Source: a virus. Taken from it: a DNA stretch of 20,082 bases. Location: the IMG/VR virus record IMGVR_UViG_3300032246_001746, positions 1-20,082 of that record; one strand, given 5' to 3'. Both the position numbers and the translations under genes were made by a program. Below, piece after piece: positions 8,498 through 19,267 of this stretch (position 1 is its first letter; every line of letters begins with the position of its first letter). The notes beneath the pieces were generated by a model. The model did not search any database. It was not told the origin of the DNA and saw only the letters and a list, made by a program, of their open reading frames with translations.

Positions 8498-10282
8498 ATG
8501 GAATACCTTGGAATAAACATAGATTTAGATAGAGATAAACTTTTTGATGAACTAGGCATAAAAAGACTTAAAGAGTCTTATATGAAAGAAGATGAAACAA
8601 CACCACAACAAAGATTCGCATACGTATCCTCCGCATTTGGGACCGATAAACTACACGCTCAACGATTGTACGACTATTCCTCAAAACACTGGTTATCTTA
8701 TTCAACACCGATCCTTTCTTTTGGCCGGTCTAAAAAAGGGTTGCCAATCTCTTGTTTCCTCAATTTTATCGATGATACAGCGGAAGGCTTAGTTGATAAT
8801 CTTTCTGAAACAAATTGGCTCTCTATGTTCGGCGGCGGTGTTGGTATTGGCTTTGGTATTAGGTCTGCTGATGATAAGTCTACAGGAGTTATGCCGCATC
8901 TTAAAATATATGATGCTTCGTCTTTGGCTTATCGTCAAGGTCGTACTCGCCGTGGTTCTTATGCCGCTTATCTTGATATTTCTCATCCCGATATTATTCC
9001 TTTCTTAGAAATGCGTAAACCAACAGGTGACCCAAATGTACGTTGCCTGAATCTACATCACGGAATAAATATTACAGATGACTTCATGAAATTGATTGAA
9101 AATTGTATGTTGGATCCAAATGCAGATGATTCATGGAATTTAGTAGACCCTTACAGTAAAGAAGTACGTGAAACTGTTTCAGCCAAAACTCTTTGGCAAC
9201 AAATTCTAGAATTGCGTATGCATACAGGCGAACCTTACATTCATTATATTGATACAAGTAATAGAATGTTGCCACAACATTTGAAAGACAAAGGATTCAA
9301 AGTACACCAATCTAATTTGTGTTCAGAAATTATTCTACCAACCAATAAAGATAGAACAGCGGTCTGTTGCCTATCGTCATTGAATCTGGAGAACTATGAT
9401 GAATGGAAAGATGATCCGTTATTCTTAAAAGATGTTGCTGAAATGTTAGATAATGTTTTGGACTATTTCATCAAACATGCACCTGATAGTATTTCTAGAG
9501 CTAGATATAGTGCTATGAGAGAACGTTCTATTGGTATCGGTGCTTTGGGCTTTCACGCTTACCTACAAAGAAATGGAATTGCTTTTGAAGGAGTTATGGC
9601 TAAAGTTGTGAATAACAAAATCTTCAAATCCATAAAGGAAAAATTAGATGAAGCTAATACAATTTTGGGATCGGAACGTGGGGAAGCTCCTGATGCTGTC
9701 GGGACTGGCAAGCGCTTTAGTCATACTATGGCTATTGCTCCAAATGCTTCTTCGTCTATCATCATGCGAAATACTAGCCCTAGTATCGAGCCTTATCGTG
9801 CTAACGCTTACCGTCAGGACACTTTATCGGGATCATTTTTAAATAAGAATCGTTGGTTGGATTTAATCATTAAAGGATTGACACAAACAGAAGAACAATA
9901 TAGTGAAGTATGGTCTTCTATTATTGCTAATGATGGTTCTGTGCAACATTTAGATATTTTAGATGAAAATCAAAAAGCAGTATTCAAAACGTCGATGGAG
10001 ATTGACCAACGCTGGGTGATTGATTTGGCCGCAGATAGACAAGTATACATTGACCAAGCTCAATCATTGAACTTGTTTTTCCGACCAGATGCACACATTA
10101 AATATATCCACGCCATTCATTTTATGGCATGGAAAAAAGGTTTGAAAACTTTGTATTACTGCCGTTCTGAAAAAATTGGTAAAGCTGATAAAGTGTCAAA
10201 AAGAATTGAAAGACAAGTAATTAAAGAAATCGACATGACACAAATTGCTCAAGGAAATGATTGTATAGCTTGTGAAGGATAA
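8498..10282 (+). CDS. nrdA: Ribonucleotide reductase class I large subunit NrdA, lacking ATP-cone
   Basis: NrdA reduces ribonucleoside diphosphates to deoxy forms with the radical supplied by NrdB. Active-site elements are all visible: C86 in PISCFLN and C290 in AVCCLSSLNL (the redox pair), N273-L-C275-S-E277 (radical cysteine and acid-base residues), the Y553-Y554 pair in LYYCRS (radical relay), and a C-terminal CIAC pair (C589, C592) for reduction by thioredoxin. Thioredoxin is the next gene. At 594 residues it is much shorter than E. coli NrdA (761). The N-terminus goes almost at once into the KRLKESYM segment, so the roughly 100-residue ATP-cone that mediates dATP inhibition is absent. 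It starts 2 bases after the mazG-like stop. NrdB is encoded separately at 12673, three foreign-looking genes away. Confidence 0.95.
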   Translation: MEYLGINIDLDRDKLFDELGIKRLKESYMKEDETTPQQRFAYVSSAFGTDKLHAQRLYDYSSKHWLSYSTPILSFGRSKKGLPISCFLNFIDDTAEGLVDNLSETNWLSMFGGGVGIGFGIRSADDKSTGVMPHLKIYDASSLAYRQGRTRRGSYAAYLDISHPDIIPFLEMRKPTGDPNVRCLNLHHGINITDDFMKLIENCMLDPNADDSWNLVDPYSKEVRETVSAKTLWQQILELRMHTGEPYIHYIDTSNRMLPQHLKDKGFKVHQSNLCSEIILPTNKDRTAVCCLSSLNLENYDEWKDDPLFLKDVAEMLDNVLDYFIKHAPDSISRARYSAMRERSIGIGALGFHAYLQRNGIAFEGVMAKVVNNKIFKSIKEKLDEANTILGSERGEAPDAVGTGKRFSHTMAIAPNASSSIIMRNTSPSIEPYRANAYRQDTLSGSFLNKNRWLDLIIKGLTQTEEQYSEVWSSIIANDGSVQHLDILDENQKAVFKTSMEIDQRWVIDLAADRQVYIDQAQSLNLFFRPDAHIKYIHAIHFMAWKKGLKTLYYCRSEKIGKADKVSKRIERQVIKEIDMTQIAQGNDCIACEG

Positions 10283-10534: not shown

Positions 10535-11182
10535 ATGAAACCAAAGATAGCTGTATTTGTACATCAACCAATGTGTTCTGTACAATCTAATAATGGTATT
10601 ATTAATGCGCTTTCTAAATATTATGATTTTAAATTATTCACAAAACATCATCTAGAAGAAAATTTCTTTGATGATGTTAATATGGTGTGTTTCCCTGGCG
10701 GTTTTGGAAATTCCGATTCTTTTGATTATCTGTTGAAAAACAATGGAAAACTAATAAGGAATTTTGTTAAAGATGGTGGTAAATATCTTGGTATTTGCAT
10801 GGGTGCTTATTGGGCAGGTAGTAATTACTTCAAACTGCTTGACAAAGTAGAGCCAGTACAGTATTATAAGCGTCCAACATCAGACACTAGGAGACCACAC
10901 ACAAAAAACATACAAGTTACTTGGCAAGAAAAACCAATGAAAATGTTTTTTAATGATGGTTGTGCTTTGATAGGAGATAACAGTAGATTTAAAACGATTG
11001 CAACATATGCCAATGGTGATCCAATGGCTATAGTACAAAATAATATAGGATTAATTGGGTGCCATCCTGAAAGTGAAAAATTTTGGTATGATTCATACAC
11101 ATGGATGAAAGGTCTATATCATAACGGTAAACATCACGAATTATTATTAGATTTTGTAAATAATTTATACTTAAAAAAATAA
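10535..11182 (+). CDS. Class I glutamine amidotransferase-like (BPL_N-type) protein
   Basis: This 215-residue protein has a flavodoxin-like amidotransferase fold. It begins with KIAVFVHQPMC. A VCFPGGFGNSD loop (51-61) precedes the nucleophile elbow GKYLGICMGAYWAG with C88, and GLIGCHPESE supplies H177 and E179, completing a Cys-His-Glu triad. The pattern fits the class I GAT-like family that includes the biotin-protein-ligase N-terminal domain, in which no synthetase partner is fused. It could release ammonia from glutamine for an amide-forming enzyme or act as a peptidase or amidase. It lies one base after the thioredoxin gene and opens the three-gene insert between nrdA and nrdB. The substrate is unknown; a role in base or glycan modification would be inference. 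Confidence 0.75.
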   Translation: MKPKIAVFVHQPMCSVQSNNGIINALSKYYDFKLFTKHHLEENFFDDVNMVCFPGGFGNSDSFDYLLKNNGKLIRNFVKDGGKYLGICMGAYWAGSNYFKLLDKVEPVQYYKRPTSDTRRPHTKNIQVTWQEKPMKMFFNDGCALIGDNSRFKTIATYANGDPMAIVQNNIGLIGCHPESEKFWYDSYTWMKGLYHNGKHHELLLDFVNNLYLKK

Positions 11183-11194
11183 AAAGGAAATTAA

Positions 11195-11959
11195 ATGCAA
11201 AAAACATATAGGAGTATTTTTATCTCCGATGTGCATCTTGGCACCAGAGATTGCAAAGCCGAGCAACTCAACAACTTTCTTAAAAACAATTCATGTGATA
11301 CACTATATCTTGTGGGAGACATAATCGATGCTTGGCGAATTCAACAAAACAAATGGCGTTGGAAACAAAGTCATACCAATGTTGTTCGTCGAGTACTAGG
11401 TCATGCAAAACGTGGCACTCGTGTCATTTATATTGCAGGAAATCATGATGAATTCTTGCGTCCCATGATACCGTACGGGTTCAGTTTTGGACTTGTGGAG
11501 ATACATAACCAAATAGAACATATAGGTGCAGACGGCAAACACTATCTTGTAGTACATGGAGATTTGTTTGACGGTATAACTAGATTAGCACCATGGATAT
11601 CATTTTTAGGAGACAAAGCATATGACATTATTTTATCACTCAATAGTAGATTCAATTGGATACGCCATCGCATGGGTTTTGGGTATTTTAGTCTTAGTCA
11701 ATATCTCAAAACAAGAGTAAAGAAGGCAGTGGATTTTATATTCCACTTTGAGAAGAATCTTTCAAACTATTGTAAAAAACGCGGGTATGATGGTGTTATA
11801 TGTGGTCATATTCATCATGCTGAAATAAAAGATATAGATGGTGTTACCTATATGAATGACGGTGATTGGGTTGAAAGCTGTACAGCACTTGTAGAACACC
11901 ATGATGGAAAATGGGAAATTGTAATTTGGACTAAGGAAAATGACAATGAAAATAAGTGA
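11195..11959 (+). CDS. LpxH-like metallophosphoesterase (UDP-2,3-diacylglucosamine diphosphatase family)
   Basis: This 254-residue calcineurin-like phosphoesterase has the full dimetal site: SDVHLG (D12, H14), GDIIDAW (D42), GNHDE (N83, H84, D85), VHGD (H121) and GHIHHA (H205, H207). The GDxxDAW and the HGDLFD features, and the size, fit the LpxH/COG2908 branch, which cleaves UDP-2,3-diacylglucosamine to lipid X and UMP in lipid A synthesis. The central region (WISFLGD to KAVDFIFHFEKN) resembles the substrate-binding lid. There is no signal peptide; LpxH acts at the inner face of the inner membrane. An AAAAAGGAAA site precedes ATG 11195. The following glycosyltransferase overlaps its end. Substrate is inferred; other nucleotide or phosphate esters remain possible. 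Confidence 0.8.
   Translation: MQKTYRSIFISDVHLGTRDCKAEQLNNFLKNNSCDTLYLVGDIIDAWRIQQNKWRWKQSHTNVVRRVLGHAKRGTRVIYIAGNHDEFLRPMIPYGFSFGLVEIHNQIEHIGADGKHYLVVHGDLFDGITRLAPWISFLGDKAYDIILSLNSRFNWIRHRMGFGYFSLSQYLKTRVKKAVDFIFHFEKNLSNYCKKRGYDGVICGHIHHAEIKDIDGVTYMNDGDWVESCTALVEHHDGKWEIVIWTKENDNENK
11933..11937 (+). promoter_or_regulatory. Ribosome binding site that sets the glycosyltransferase start
   Basis: AAGGA is 8 bases from ATG 11946 but only 2 from the in-frame ATG 11940, so the downstream start is preferred. Confidence 0.6.
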
Positions 11960-12656
11960 TGAAATTACAATTGTCATTCCTTGTAAGAATGAAGAAAATT
12001 ATATAAACTATCTTTTAGATGATTTAAAAAAACAAAACATCGGTGATACCAAAATTATCATTGCCGATTGTTCTACTGATAACACAAGGAATGTTATTAA
12101 ATATAGCAAAGGCAATTTGAACGTTGAAATCATTGAAGGCGGCCCTGTTTCTATTGCTAAGAATAGTGGAGCTAAACTTGCAACAACACCATATATTTTA
12201 TTCATTGATAGTGATGTTAGATTTTTCAGCGAAACAACAATAAGTGATTCGGTTAATGAAATGTTGTCAAACAATCTCGACCTTGTTGGACTTTACATAA
12301 AGTGTTATGATAACAATAGAACAACACAAATTGGATTTATGCTTTTCAATTTTATAAACAATCTTATGAAATACAAAGTCCCTTTTGCTGTCGGCGCATT
12401 TATGCTTACACGCAGAGATAAGTTTGAACAGTTTGGTGGTTTTTCTGAAAAACATGGAACAAGCGAAGACTTCTTTTTATCAAAGATGTATGATTCTAAA
12501 AAATTCAAATTGGTTAAACATTACTTTGGTCAAGATAGTAGAAGATTTCAGAAAATGGGATACTTTGGTATGGCGACATATTTGATTAAAAATTTTTGGA
12601 ATCGAAACAATGAAGAATACTGGAATAATATAAAACATTCAAAATATTGGAACTAA
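11946..12656 (+). CDS. Glycosyltransferase family 2
   Basis: This 236-residue GT-A fold enzyme transfers a sugar from a nucleotide sugar. The N-terminal EITIVIPCKNEENYI is the typical first beta strand. IADCSTDNT supplies the nucleotide-binding Asp, and AKNSGAKLATTPYILFIDSD ends in the metal-binding DSD motif (D88, D90). An acceptor loop (VGAFMLTRRDKFEQFGGFSE) with a TSEDFFLSK acidic motif follows, equivalent to the ED base region. There is no transmembrane segment beyond one moderately hydrophobic helix (about 128-150), so it is probably soluble or peripheral. It overlaps the LpxH-like gene by 14 bases. It is probably a partner in modifying surface glycolipid; modification of phage DNA bases, as T4 does with other enzymes, is an alternative. 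Confidence 0.85.
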   Translation: MKISDEITIVIPCKNEENYINYLLDDLKKQNIGDTKIIIADCSTDNTRNVIKYSKGNLNVEIIEGGPVSIAKNSGAKLATTPYILFIDSDVRFFSETTISDSVNEMLSNNLDLVGLYIKCYDNNRTTQIGFMLFNFINNLMKYKVPFAVGAFMLTRRDKFEQFGGFSEKHGTSEDFFLSKMYDSKKFKLVKHYFGQDSRRFQKMGYFGMATYLIKNFWNRNNEEYWNNIKHSKYWN

Positions 12657-12672: not shown

Positions 12673-13659
12673 ATGATAAAGAAAACAAAACAAGATGTTA
12701 CACAAGAACGTACATATTTCAAGCCATTCAACTATGCATGGGCTTATGATGCATGGTTAAAACACGAACAAAGCCATTGGCTGCATACAGAAGTTCCAAT
12801 GATGGAAGATACAAAAGATTGGAAGAAAAAACTTACAGATGAAGAAAAGAAATTCTTAACTCATATTTTCCGTTTCTTCACACAAGGTGATATTGATGTT
12901 GCTGGTGGTTATGTAAACAACTACTTACCTTATTTTCCGCAACCAGAAATGCGTATGATGTTGTTGGGCTTTGCAGCTCGTGAAGCATTGCATGTTGCTG
13001 CTTATTCACACTTGATTGAAACTCTTGGTCTACCAGAGACAACATATAATGAATTTTCAGAATATGCAGAAATGCGTGAGAAGCATGATTACATCATGGA
13101 TATCTCCCAACAAAATAGTTCTAAAGAAAATACAGCAACACACATTGCAGTTTTCTCTGCATTCACAGAAGGTATGCAACTGTTCTCGTCATTCATTATG
13201 TTGTTGAATTTTCCAAGACATGGTAAAATGAAAGGCATGGGCCAGATTGTTACTTGGTCGATTGTTGATGAAACACAACATGCTGAAAATATGATTAAAT
13301 TATTCCGCACATACATAGGTGAAAATCCAGAAATTTGGAACGATGAACTTAAAAAACGAATTTACACCATCGCTGAAAAGATGGTTGAACTTGAAGATAA
13401 GTTTATTGACCTAGCTTTCAATTTAGGTGCAATGGAAGGTTTAACTGCGGAAGATGTGAAGAAGTATATTCGTTACATTGCTGACCGTAGATTAATTTCA
13501 TTAAGCTTGAAGGGTATTTTTAAAGTTAAGAAAAATCCATTACCGTGGGTTGAAGAAATGATTAATGCACCAACGCATACAAATTTCTTTGAGAATCGTG
13601 CAACTGATTATGCAAAGGGTGCTTTGTCTGGTAATTGGGGAGATGTTTGGGCTAATTAA
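12673..13659 (+). CDS. nrdB: Ribonucleotide reductase class I small subunit NrdB
   Basis: NrdB houses the metal cofactor and tyrosyl radical that activates NrdA. All six metal ligands can be placed by alignment with the E. coli pattern: D73 (QGD), E104 and H107 (REALH), E166 (TEGMQ), E200 and H203 (DETQH). Y111 follows H107 by four residues, as the E. coli radical tyrosine does. This argues for a tyrosyl-radical enzyme rather than the metal-free class Ie type. The 328-residue length is slightly below E. coli NrdB (376). The C-terminus (GALSGNWGDVWAN) is the likely NrdA-binding tail. It is separated from nrdA by the thioredoxin gene and three insert genes. Its own ribosome site is weak (AAAGAAAG), so expression probably relies on the upstream transcript. 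Confidence 0.95.
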   Translation: MIKKTKQDVTQERTYFKPFNYAWAYDAWLKHEQSHWLHTEVPMMEDTKDWKKKLTDEEKKFLTHIFRFFTQGDIDVAGGYVNNYLPYFPQPEMRMMLLGFAAREALHVAAYSHLIETLGLPETTYNEFSEYAEMREKHDYIMDISQQNSSKENTATHIAVFSAFTEGMQLFSSFIMLLNFPRHGKMKGMGQIVTWSIVDETQHAENMIKLFRTYIGENPEIWNDELKKRIYTIAEKMVELEDKFIDLAFNLGAMEGLTAEDVKKYIRYIADRRLISLSLKGIFKVKKNPLPWVEEMINAPTHTNFFENRATDYAKGALSGNWGDVWAN

Positions 13660-14636: not shown

Positions 14637-15488
14637 ATGATTCTCGTTGACCTTAACCAGGTTTTGTTAGCCGGTTTGATGGCACAAATATCAAATCAAA
14701 AAGGAATTAAGTTAGACGAAAACTTAGTTCGACACATGGTACTAAACATTCTTAGGATGCACCTAAAGACGTTCCGCAACGAATACGGAGAAGTTGTACT
14801 CTGTTGTGACAACCGTAAATATTGGCGTAAGGAATTCTTTCCATTTTACAAGGCAGGACGCAAAGCAACCCGTGAAAAGTCTGCACTAGACTGGCATCTG
14901 ATTTTTGAATTGCTGACCAAGTTCAAACAAGAATTGAAAGAAAACTTTCCATATAAAGTTATTGATGTTGAAGGTGCAGAAGCTGACGATATTATTGGCA
15001 CACTTACACCAAGGTTTGCTGCACACCAAAAAATACTAATACTTTCCAGTGACGGAGATTTTTTGCAACTACAGCGTTATGGTGTAAATATCAAGCAATA
15101 CAATCCTGCATTAAAGAAATACATCAAGTCTGAAAATCCAGCAATTGAATTAAAAGAAAAAATTATCAAAGGCGATAAGGGTGATGGAATACCTAACGTT
15201 CTTTCTGCTTCAGATTGCTTTGTTCGTGGCGTCAGACAGACTACGATTAGTAAGGGCAAACTTGATAAGATGTTGAATGAACACTACGGAGATTGGGAAG
15301 ATGAAAATGCACGTATTGGTTTTTCTAGAAACCAAACGCTAATTGATTTGACCTTGATTCCGGGTGATATTAAAGATAAAATCATAAATACGTATGATGA
15401 TACTAAACCCGCATCTAAACAAAAGATGCTTAACTATTTTATTCAATACAAATTGAAAAATTTAATGGAAGTAATTGAGGAATTTTAA
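14637..15488 (+). CDS. rnh: RNase H / 5'-3' exonuclease, T4 rnh (FEN) type
   Basis: This enzyme removes RNA primers and adjacent DNA from lagging-strand fragments. The 283-residue length is close to T4 RNase H (305). The acidic metal sites of the FEN/5'-exonuclease family are visible: D5 in ILVDLN, D58 in CCDNRKYWR, E115/D117/D118 in EGAEADDIIG, D139/D141 in SSDGDFLQ, and D180/D183 in KGDKGDGIPN, the last introducing the helix-hairpin-helix. The basic YKAGRK segment (71-76) fits the substrate arch. Its own promoter lies 26 bases upstream, but only a weak ribosome site (CTGGA) precedes the ATG. It works with the primase at 6486, and the next gene overlaps it by TAATG. Confidence 0.93.
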   Translation: MILVDLNQVLLAGLMAQISNQKGIKLDENLVRHMVLNILRMHLKTFRNEYGEVVLCCDNRKYWRKEFFPFYKAGRKATREKSALDWHLIFELLTKFKQELKENFPYKVIDVEGAEADDIIGTLTPRFAAHQKILILSSDGDFLQLQRYGVNIKQYNPALKKYIKSENPAIELKEKIIKGDKGDGIPNVLSASDCFVRGVRQTTISKGKLDKMLNEHYGDWEDENARIGFSRNQTLIDLTLIPGDIKDKIINTYDDTKPASKQKMLNYFIQYKLKNLMEVIEEF

Positions 15489-16680: not shown

Positions 16681-16824
16681 ATGACGGAAAATGACGATAC
16701 AAAACCCAAATTTACGCCGGAATCACTAAATCAGCTCGACCAGGCGATTCGCCGTTGGGTTGTTACATCTCAATATGAGAAAGATTTAGAAAATTATGAA
16801 AAACTCAAGCAACAATATGAATAA
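16681..16824 (+). CDS. 47-residue small helical protein
   Basis: ATG 16681 follows the previous stop by one base. The frame encodes 47 residues: an acidic/polar start (MTENDDTKPKFTPESLNQLD), then a helix QAIRRWVVTSQYEKDLENYE with Trp at 26, and a charged end KLKQQYE. It is probably one long helix, perhaps coiled-coil. It overlaps the AbrB-like gene by 8 bases. I do not recognise it. The unbroken tight spacing in the cluster is the main support. Confidence 0.55.
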   Translation: MTENDDTKPKFTPESLNQLDQAIRRWVVTSQYEKDLENYEKLKQQYE

Positions 16825-17011
16825 TTCTACTTGGTCAACAACAATTGAAGATGCCGGCGACGGTTCTGGTGATGGAATTCTAACTTTACCGCCAGAATTG
16901 TGTGAACTGAAAGGCTGGAAAGAAGGAACTATACTAAATTTAGAAGTTTCTGATGGAATTTTAATAATTACTGAAGTTGATGCTGAAAAACAACAAGGCC
17001 TTGACAAATAA
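16817..17011 (+). CDS. AbrB/MazE-like small DNA-binding protein candidate
   Basis: This is 64 residues from ATG 16817, which overlaps the previous stop by 8 bases. An in-frame ATG at 16796 would add 7 residues inside the previous gene and is less likely. The pattern STWSTTIEDAGDG...ILTLPPELCELKGWKEGTIL, then LEVSDGILIITEV, matches the swapped-hairpin AbrB fold (beta, LPxELxxxLGWKEGDxL, beta), a fold used by transcription regulators and antitoxins. No toxin gene is adjacent, so a regulator seems more likely than a toxin-antitoxin pair. Its last codons contain the -35 box of the promoter for the 736-residue protein, which might make it an autoregulator of the neighbour, though that is speculative. 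Confidence 0.65.
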   Translation: MNNSTWSTTIEDAGDGSGDGILTLPPELCELKGWKEGTILNLEVSDGILIITEVDAEKQQGLDK

Positions 17012-17029
17012 ATTTGTTTGTGTTACTAT
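17001..17029 (+). promoter_or_regulatory. Sigma70-type promoter with extended -10 before VWA gene
   Basis: TTGACA (17001-17006) overlaps the last codons of the AbrB-like gene. After 17 bases comes TACTAT (17024-17029, 4 of 6), with TGT immediately before, an extended -10. It ends 27 bases before ATG 17057, and an AGGA ribosome site lies at 17047-17050. Confidence 0.6.
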
Positions 17030-17056
17030 ATCAATTCTTAGTACACAGGAAGTTAT

Positions 17057-19267
17057 ATGGAACTAATCGAAACAAAATCAATTCTTGCCAAACTGATGGC
17101 AACAGAAAATCTCCACATCGAACAACGTCATGTTTCAACGGCAAGCTTTGATGTTAAAAATCGTATTCTTACTATTCCAATTTTGGAAAAAGGAATTTCG
17201 ACATACCTTTACGATTTATTTCTAGGGCATGAAGTTGCTCATGCTCTGTGGACACCACTTGATGGACTACACAAAGCTCACGAATTGGGATACTCTTTGA
17301 GTGTTATGAATGTGTTGGAAGATTCACGCATCGAACGTAAAATCAAAATCAAATATCCTGGCATTCGTCAATCATTCATTCGTGCATATAAAGAGTTGGT
17401 CGACCAAGATTTTTTTGGAACAAAAGGCCAAGATTTGAATGAACTTAACTTTATTGACCGTGTAAACCTGTATTGCAAGGGTGGTTCGGTGACAGGCATT
17501 AAATTCAATGAAGTTGAAACAGAGATTCTAAAAGAAATTGAAAATACACAAACGTATGATGATGTTTTGGATGTATATAAAAAAGTATCCGATTACATGA
17601 AAAAAATTGGAGAAAATGAAGAAGCAAAAGAATTTGACCTAAAAGATTTGCCTATCAATATTATTGAATCTGATGAAGAAGGTGAAGATGGAGATTCTAA
17701 AACAACCATAGAAGTGAAAGTACAAGAAGAAGGTAAATCTGGAAAAAAAGGTAAAAAAGAAGAAAAGAAAGCATCCGAGGAGGAAGGTGAAAAAGAAGAA
17801 AACTCTGGTTCCAATGGAAACGAAAACGGAACTGGAGGAAATTCTGGTTCAAAAGAAGTGCCTGGCACCGGCGGCTTTGGTGGAAAAAAAGAACCTGTTT
17901 CCAAAACAGATGAAGCCTATCGTCAAAATGAAGACCGTTTATTCTCAACAAAATCAAGTGATGAAATTCTCTACGGAAATGTTCCAAATTTAGACCTCGA
18001 CGAATATGTTATTGACTACAGTAAAATTTGGAATCGTTACGAAAAAGATTGTAGTGAAAAACAACAAAAATATGGTTTTGATGTATTAAATAATGTAACA
18101 GAAAAGCAAACAAAAATGTTTGTTAAATTCCGTGAAGATTCTAAAAAGGTTGTTTCTTATCTTGTAAAAGAATTTGAATTGCGTAAGAATGCAGACCAAT
18201 TAAAACGTGCAACAGTTTCTAAAACTGGTGATTTGAATATGTCTAAGATTTTTTCTTATAATTTCAATGAAGACCTGTTCAAAAAAATCACTGTTATTCC
18301 TGGTGGAAAATCACATGGTCTCGTTATGTTCATCGATTGGTCTGGTTCTATGGCAGACCATATGGAAAACACAATCAAGCAATTGCTAAACTTGGTGATG
18401 TTCTGCAAAAAAATTAATATTCCTTATGAAGTATATTCTTTCACCACAGAATACCATGATGATTATGGTTACAAAGAATCAATACACGAAATTCGTAGAA
18501 ATGCAAAACATGGTGATATGGTAATGTCTCCATTTAAATTATTGAATTTGTTATCTCATAGAATGCCAGCTATGCAATTTTCAAAAGCTGCAGGAGCACT
18601 CCTAGGTTTTATTAAACTGAATCGTTATTATGGTCCAGATTGGTTGAACTTGGGCGGAACACCTTTGAATGAATCTATTGTTGCTGCAATGAAAATTGTT
18701 CCAAAATTCCAAAAAGAAAACCGACTACAAGTTGTAAACACGGTATTCCTTACAGACGGCGAAGCTTCACAATATATTGCAATAAGTGATGGCCTGGGTG
18801 CATATACTAATCATAATTATCGTAAACAACGTATTGTTATTCGTGATCCAATCACAAAACATGAAGTAATGGTGAATGATCCAAGCAAAGAAACAAAGCT
18901 AACTACAGCTTATATTGAACTGCTGAAAGCAAGGACAAATTGTAACATTATTGGTTTCTATATTTTGAGTGGTCGTAATTTTTCTGGAGTTATTCCTAAC
19001 TTTTATCCAAATATAGAATGGGGATCAAATGAATATGAAAAACTAAAAAAAGACTTTAAGTCCGATAAGTATTCGATTGTGACTACTGCCGGTTTCGATG
19101 AGTATTATTTGATTAGGTCAGAGAACCTAGATACAGATGAAGATAATGAATTTGAAGTAAAAGAAGATGCAACCATGCGAAACATTGCATCCGCATTTTC
19201 TAAATTTTCTTCATCAAGAAAAACAAGTCGTGTTGTACTAAACCGATTCATAGAATTAATTGCATAG
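17057..19267 (+). CDS. HExxH metallopeptidase-like plus VWA (CobT-type) protein
   Basis: This 736-residue protein is the largest of the window. The N-terminal domain (1-200) has the zincin motif LGHEVAHALW (H58, E59, H62) followed by VLEDSRIERK; E88 is a plausible third zinc ligand. A low-complexity Glu/Lys/Gly/Ser linker spans about 205-280. The C-terminal half is a von Willebrand A domain with a complete MIDAS: DWSGS (427-431), the Thr of GGTPL (T535) and the Asp of LTDGE (D567). The HExxH plus VWA layout and the acidic linker match CobT-like proteins, which in cobalt chelatase and related systems work with a MoxR/CobS AAA+ ATPase. T4-like aquatic phages carry a CobS-like gene, so a chaperone-like pair is plausible, but no AAA+ gene is in this window. 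The real substrate is unknown. It has its own promoter and a good ribosome site. Confidence 0.8.
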   Translation: MELIETKSILAKLMATENLHIEQRHVSTASFDVKNRILTIPILEKGISTYLYDLFLGHEVAHALWTPLDGLHKAHELGYSLSVMNVLEDSRIERKIKIKYPGIRQSFIRAYKELVDQDFFGTKGQDLNELNFIDRVNLYCKGGSVTGIKFNEVETEILKEIENTQTYDDVLDVYKKVSDYMKKIGENEEAKEFDLKDLPINIIESDEEGEDGDSKTTIEVKVQEEGKSGKKGKKEEKKASEEEGEKEENSGSNGNENGTGGNSGSKEVPGTGGFGGKKEPVSKTDEAYRQNEDRLFSTKSSDEILYGNVPNLDLDEYVIDYSKIWNRYEKDCSEKQQKYGFDVLNNVTEKQTKMFVKFREDSKKVVSYLVKEFELRKNADQLKRATVSKTGDLNMSKIFSYNFNEDLFKKITVIPGGKSHGLVMFIDWSGSMADHMENTIKQLLNLVMFCKKINIPYEVYSFTTEYHDDYGYKESIHEIRRNAKHGDMVMSPFKLLNLLSHRMPAMQFSKAAGALLGFIKLNRYYGPDWLNLGGTPLNESIVAAMKIVPKFQKENRLQVVNTVFLTDGEASQYIAISDGLGAYTNHNYRKQRIVIRDPITKHEVMVNDPSKETKLTTAYIELLKARTNCNIIGFYILSGRNFSGVIPNFYPNIEWGSNEYEKLKKDFKSDKYSIVTTAGFDEYYLIRSENLDTDEDNEFEVKEDATMRNIASAFSKFSSSRKTSRVVLNRFIELIA

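Follow-up and report, generated by a model that had tools for sequence, protein, structure and literature searches.

The gene studied here encodes a protein in which a HExxH metal site is joined to a VWA domain, and the question is whether this protein serves vitamin B12 synthesis, virion assembly or the remodelling of some other protein in the infected cell. The window, i.e., the whole stretch of viral DNA that was analysed, comprises 20,082 nucleotides. The sequence-only reading of this DNA had taken the gene as a possible part of an undescribed system, which does not hold, as the pair of AAA+ ATPase and VWA protein is already described under two conflicting published functions. Under the name cobST it was reported for cyanophages and archaeal viruses, with B12 synthesis as its function (PMC8651126), and in jumbo phages as a MoxR AAA+ protein with a vWA-metallopeptidase, for which virion assembly was proposed (PMC7824862). 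T4-like cyanophages have cobS among their core genes (PMC3037559), and according to PMC9983427 it is not known whether the phage gene serves B12 during infection. In the literature on the pair we found no biochemistry on the phage proteins.

The open reading frame starts with the ATG at 17057 and ends with the stop codon at 19265-19267, giving a product of 736 amino acids (Table 1). The profile of PHROG 459 ('peptidase') spans the protein over its full length (residues 4-736, E 5.9e-203). There are 463 public phage records with a member of this family; T4-like cyanophages account for nearly all of them, the other carriers being Pelagibacter, Stenotrophomonas, Ochrobactrum and Pseudoalteromonas phages. 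The intact HExxH zincin motif, E88, the MIDAS residues (D427, S429, S431, T535 and D567) and the acidic linker, which is rich in E, K, G and S, all lie where the sequence-only reading had placed them. A Pfam scan of the window protein returned nothing significant, with one insignificant match that extends into the linker, and searching PDB sequences with the profile of the family gave no meaningful match (best E 0.08, within the linker). DUF2201, a Pfam metallopeptidase-VWA family which we took to be a possible relative, was absent from all Pfam scans made, both of the window protein and of distant phage relatives.

Table 1. Positions of the gene, its predicted domains and motifs, upstream sites and selected neighbours in the window.
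Feature	Position	Strand	Remark
Zincin-linker-VWA protein CDS, 736 aa	17057..19267	+	PHROG 459, annotated 'peptidase' or CobT-like
Predicted N-terminal zincin domain, residues 1-196	17057..17644	+	AlphaFold2 of this domain alone, pLDDT 87.5; weak structural matches, nearly all zincins
HEVAH motif, residues 58-62	17228..17242	+	H, E, H unchanged in 87/87
NVLEDSRIE motif, residues 85-93	17309..17335	+	N85, E88, D89, R91 unchanged in 87/87
Acidic low-complexity linker, residues 195-276	17639..17884	+	pLDDT <50
Predicted VWA domain, about residues 418-736	18308..19264	+	Structural matches NorD VWA, midasin MIDAS
MIDAS DxSxS, residues 427-431	18335..18349	+	T535 codon at 18659, D567 codon at 18755
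Host sigma-70-type promoter-like site TTGACA-17-TACTAT, extended -10	17001..17029	+	27 nt 5' of start codon
Probable ribosome-binding site AGGAAG	17047..17052	+	Sequence reading
RNase H-like phage exonuclease family, upstream neighbour	14637..15488	+	PHROG 107, E 2e-53
Ribonucleotide reductase large subunit	8498..10282	+	PHROG 84, E 3e-161
NrdB	12673-13659		PHROG 86, E 7e-89; class I pair with large subunit

AlphaFold2 predicts two folded parts for the whole protein, the N-terminal and the VWA part, with a disordered linker (195-276) between them. In the predicted model the HExxH motif lies in a helix (49-65) and E88 in a second one (81-99), which fits a zincin arrangement, and from the gluzincin pattern E88 is the probable third zinc ligand. 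Structural matches of the N-terminal domain are weak (Z up to 6.0, none by Foldseek with E <0.001). Zincins make up nearly all of the top rows, namely ZMPSTE24, ArdC, minigluzincins, BlaR1, BepA and IrrE, and Spartan and Wss1 follow at lower rank. The best matches of the VWA domain are NorD from a solved complex containing NorQ (Z 16.1) and the MIDAS domain of midasin (Z 15.2). Since both are tied to AAA+ motors, the predicted VWA fold is of the AAA-docking type. NorQ-NorD, which activates nitric oxide reductase, is likewise a system of AAA+ and VWA subunits, and the NorD VWA domain is the closest solved fold.

According to the sequence-only reading the protein may be one half of a MoxR/CobS-CobT-like AAA+/VWA pair, and an AAA+ gene should occur in the genomes that carry it. 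The 20-kb record contains no AAA+ gene and ends 815 bases past the VWA gene. Wherever a contig was long enough the AAA+ gene was found, including 12 of the 12 VWA-gene contigs of at least 100 kb, so that the proposed pairing is borne out. As contigs were picked for carrying either gene, this measures co-occurrence and not frequency. In G004 (whose VWA protein is 83% identical to that of the window) and G005, the nearest relatives with sufficient sequence, the AAA+ gene follows 19.1 kb and 15.2 kb downstream of the VWA gene, respectively, and in four more contigs about 14.7 to 18.3 kb downstream, one of these distances being measured across contig ends. The single contig of at least 100 kb with the AAA+ gene alone ends near or before the expected VWA position. 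The shorter one-gene contigs likewise stop close to, or short of, the position at which the other gene would be expected; G014 and G015, which extend 14.5-15.3 kb downstream, are borderline cases.

Among isolates the group-level totals for VWA and AAA+ genes are equal (Synechococcus 365, Cyanophage 61, Prochlorococcus 24). In P-SSM4, P-HM2, S-PM2 and S-SCSM1 an AAA+ gene named cobS follows one to three genes after the VWA gene, and in HTVC008M, a phage of Pelagibacter, both genes adjoin. In cyanophages the two correspond to T4-GC 146 ('peptidase', PHROG 459) and T4-GC 150 (cobS, PHROG 249). This family is shared over the full length with about 32-39% identity to the isolates, and the zincin and MIDAS residues as well as the AAA+ partner are as in the window lineage. 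However, in the window lineage the genes are not close but about 15-19 kb apart, and a host-type promoter-like site of its own precedes the VWA gene. Judged from these gene positions, the AAA+ gene has moved away from the VWA gene in the lineage of the window. The AAA+ sequence matches midasin (5e-57) and CobS (2e-30), and also NorQ and CbbQ. Beside a kayvirus AAA+ relative, HExxH was not found in the two neighbouring proteins examined.

In the window, the promoter-like site 5' of the VWA gene is, taken alone, marginal against shuffled sequences (p 0.03). All members of the closest set (9/9) and 15/23 members of the next one have a near-consensus sigma-70 promoter-like site 22-40 nt 5' of the VWA gene. 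No strong promoter-like site precedes the gene in L027, L029-L031, L033 and L046. The late-type TATAAATA occurs in 0 of 84 upstream stretches (90 nt 5' of the VWA gene). In the 170-kb relative G005 (L206-L214) the region of 80-100 kb, which contains the VWA gene, has 18 promoter-like sites, where 0.5 are expected from shuffles. A further site lies 187 bases 5' of the AAA+ match and eight are found at 40-60 kb; the first 20 kb and all sequence beyond 140 kb are free of them. The genes of the pair are located at 85 and 102 kb in this relative and the capsid genes gp22/gp23 at 22 kb. Promoter-like sites do not by themselves show transcription, but together with the gene position they would fit an early role better than a late one. 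The main text of the P-HM2 transcriptome paper mentions neither cobS nor the peptidase.

Upstream of the VWA gene the window also encodes a primase and a thymidylate synthase, and downstream a sugar epimerase (19490) that is cut by the end of the record. Between both ribonucleotide reductase genes a glutamine-amidotransferase-like ORF (10535-11182), for which PHROG gave no match at E 0.001, is followed by metallophosphoesterase and glycosyltransferase genes (11195-12656). The latter two and the epimerase suggest surface-sugar modification. A small acidic ORF resembling an AbrB-type DNA-binding protein is situated just 5' of the VWA gene (16796-17011), and a similar sequence also precedes the VWA gene in several relatives. 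In the 170-kb relative a GroES-like co-chaperonin gene (L005:13238-13498) was seen about 1 kb past the VWA gene. In several distinct lineages the annotated neighbours are replication, repair or recombination genes, a plain observation with no background comparison. These sets include gp46/gp47 and gp45/gp44; polymerase, UvsX and helicase; ligase and dnaE; primase and helicase; and on an IncC plasmid ssb, bet and an exonuclease.

These data bear on the proposal that the pair is a machine of virion assembly or maturation. Following the jumbo-phage proposal (PMC7824862), and also in analogy to the Acidianus two-tailed virus, it would fold and process structural proteins. The jumbo-phage pair, compared here by the description in that paper only, has the same domain order and is the same kind of pair, but differs in that virion assembly is the function proposed for it. 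For such a role speak this published proposal, the retention of both genes in nearly all T4-like cyanophages and the GroES-like gene near the VWA gene in L005. However, the host-type promoter-like sites, the lack of the late motif in the 90 nt upstream, the distance of the pair from gp22/gp23 in the 170-kb relative and the replication genes as neighbours in other lineages make virion assembly an unlikely main function.

Conservation of the metal sites was analyzed in 87 sequences, the window protein and 86 viral relatives; the relatives included in one alignment are 32-84% identical to it. H58, E59, H62, N85, E88, D89 and R91 as well as the MIDAS residues D427, S429, S431 and D567 are unchanged in 87/87, whilst T535 is kept as T in 85 sequences and replaced by S in the other 2. 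This conservation of zincin and MIDAS residues is far beyond chance. As far as can be told from sequence, the 'peptidase' label of PHROG 459 is justified, and real proteolysis, as the sequence-only reading had suggested from the intact HExxH, is plausible. Loss of the motif in close homologues had been named as an argument against this; it is kept in all 86 sampled relatives but lost in a distant one. In Pseudomonas phage nickie a CobT-like protein (L190:2358-4442) has HExxH decayed to FLDSEISK and retains a MIDAS-like DCSGS, which by its sequence is a natural loss of the protease site. In ICP2 the position of E88 apparently carries V. Both cases imply that proteolysis is dispensable in some branches.

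Hence it was considered whether the zincin domain merely binds metal or peptide, while AAA+ and VWA do the work of a non-proteolytic remodeller. The decayed motif of nickie and the missing motif of cellular CobT, both with the rest of the protein retained, agree with this possibility. However, catalytic residues that are all invariant in 87/87 are hard to explain without catalysis, and we regard a purely non-proteolytic role as quite unlikely.

The relation to CobT was analyzed at the level of profiles. Neither Pfam CobT (PF06213) nor CobT_C (PF11775) matched the window protein at E up to 1. Both are matched by distant phage and phage-plasmid forms (Cyrano, RHEph10 and an Acinetobacter plasmid), which all keep HEVAH. 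In contrast to the phage family with HExxH in 87/87, cellular CobT is without the motif in 6/6, and the N-terminal stretch of solved cellular CobT likewise lacks it. The T4-like N-terminal domain matches the phage-plasmid forms with a probability of 97.8 (E 8e-13), and these match the six cellular CobT with E 3e-4 at a probability of only 39%. In the latter alignment neither histidine is present in the residues opposite HEVAH, and VEQARVE stands opposite the ED..IE motif. A direct link between the T4-like N-terminal domain and cellular CobT was rejected, as it covers 40 columns only around ED..IE (E 0.007, probability 6%). The tie to cellular CobT runs via the phage-plasmid forms. We infer that cellular CobT lost the zincin site rather than that phages gained it. 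The aerobic cobaltochelatase CobS-CobT (solved, 9uka and related) is likewise built of AAA+ and VWA subunits, with an N-terminal domain related through the phage-plasmid forms at profile level, but differs in that cellular CobT has no HExxH and partners CobN.

A CobN gene was found neither in the 10 phage records searched nor in E. coli as a control, whereas Synechococcus elongatus and Haloferax were positive. The CobT-like proteins of Escherichia phage Cyrano (L016) and of the plasmid of E. coli LF82 (L186) are identical and both records have 108,379 bases, so that they look like one phage-plasmid. The VWA and AAA+ pair is present on the LF82 plasmid. Plasmid records with a relative number 378 for Escherichia and 619 for Klebsiella, some matches being partial. 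The class I ribonucleotide reductase, encoded here by NrdAB, does not use B12. As cellular CobT is without HExxH, the pair occurs on elements of E. coli although E. coli has no CobN, and the reductase is of class I, a role other than B12 is favoured; in hosts with CobN, e.g., cyanobacteria, a B12 role is possible. That CobS and CobT of the phage join the CobN of the host and so increase cobalamin in the infected cell (PMC8651126; the usual cyanophage annotation) is therefore very unlikely as the general function, even though distant phage relatives match both CobT families, the AAA+ gene matches CobS and some hosts have CobN, since the window protein matches neither family, its invariant zincin is missing from cellular CobT, CobN was not found in the phage records or E. 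coli, and the window encodes a class I reductase.

We consider it probable that an early-made AAA+ ring together with the VWA-zincin protein remodels, and probably cleaves, a protein target in the infected cell and does not act on corrins. In this AAA+ machine of two genes the protein would be adaptor and protease. The other gene, located elsewhere in the phage genome, would supply a CobS/MoxR-type ring that docks to the VWA (MIDAS) domain and spends ATP to remodel or unfold the target, and the N-terminal zincin, held on the flexible acidic linker, would probably cut this target. Both genes would be expressed early from host-type promoters, and the target is most plausibly tied to DNA replication, repair or takeover. 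Going further, the pair may be an ATP-powered early protease of many phages and phage-plasmids that dismantles and cuts a host complex bound to DNA, be it replisome, nucleoid or defence complex, with cellular CobT as a domesticated descendant carrying a dead protease domain; this extended version is speculative and, as a whole, unlikely.

For the PHROG 459 family the zincin-VWA protein makes the two conflicting published readings experimentally separable. As the zincin is intact in the phages and missing in cellular CobT, one single residue, E59, bears on both of them. In ocean surveys cobS is counted as a vitamin B12 gene, and inferences on B12 drawn in this way would be wrong if the pair is a protein-remodelling protease.
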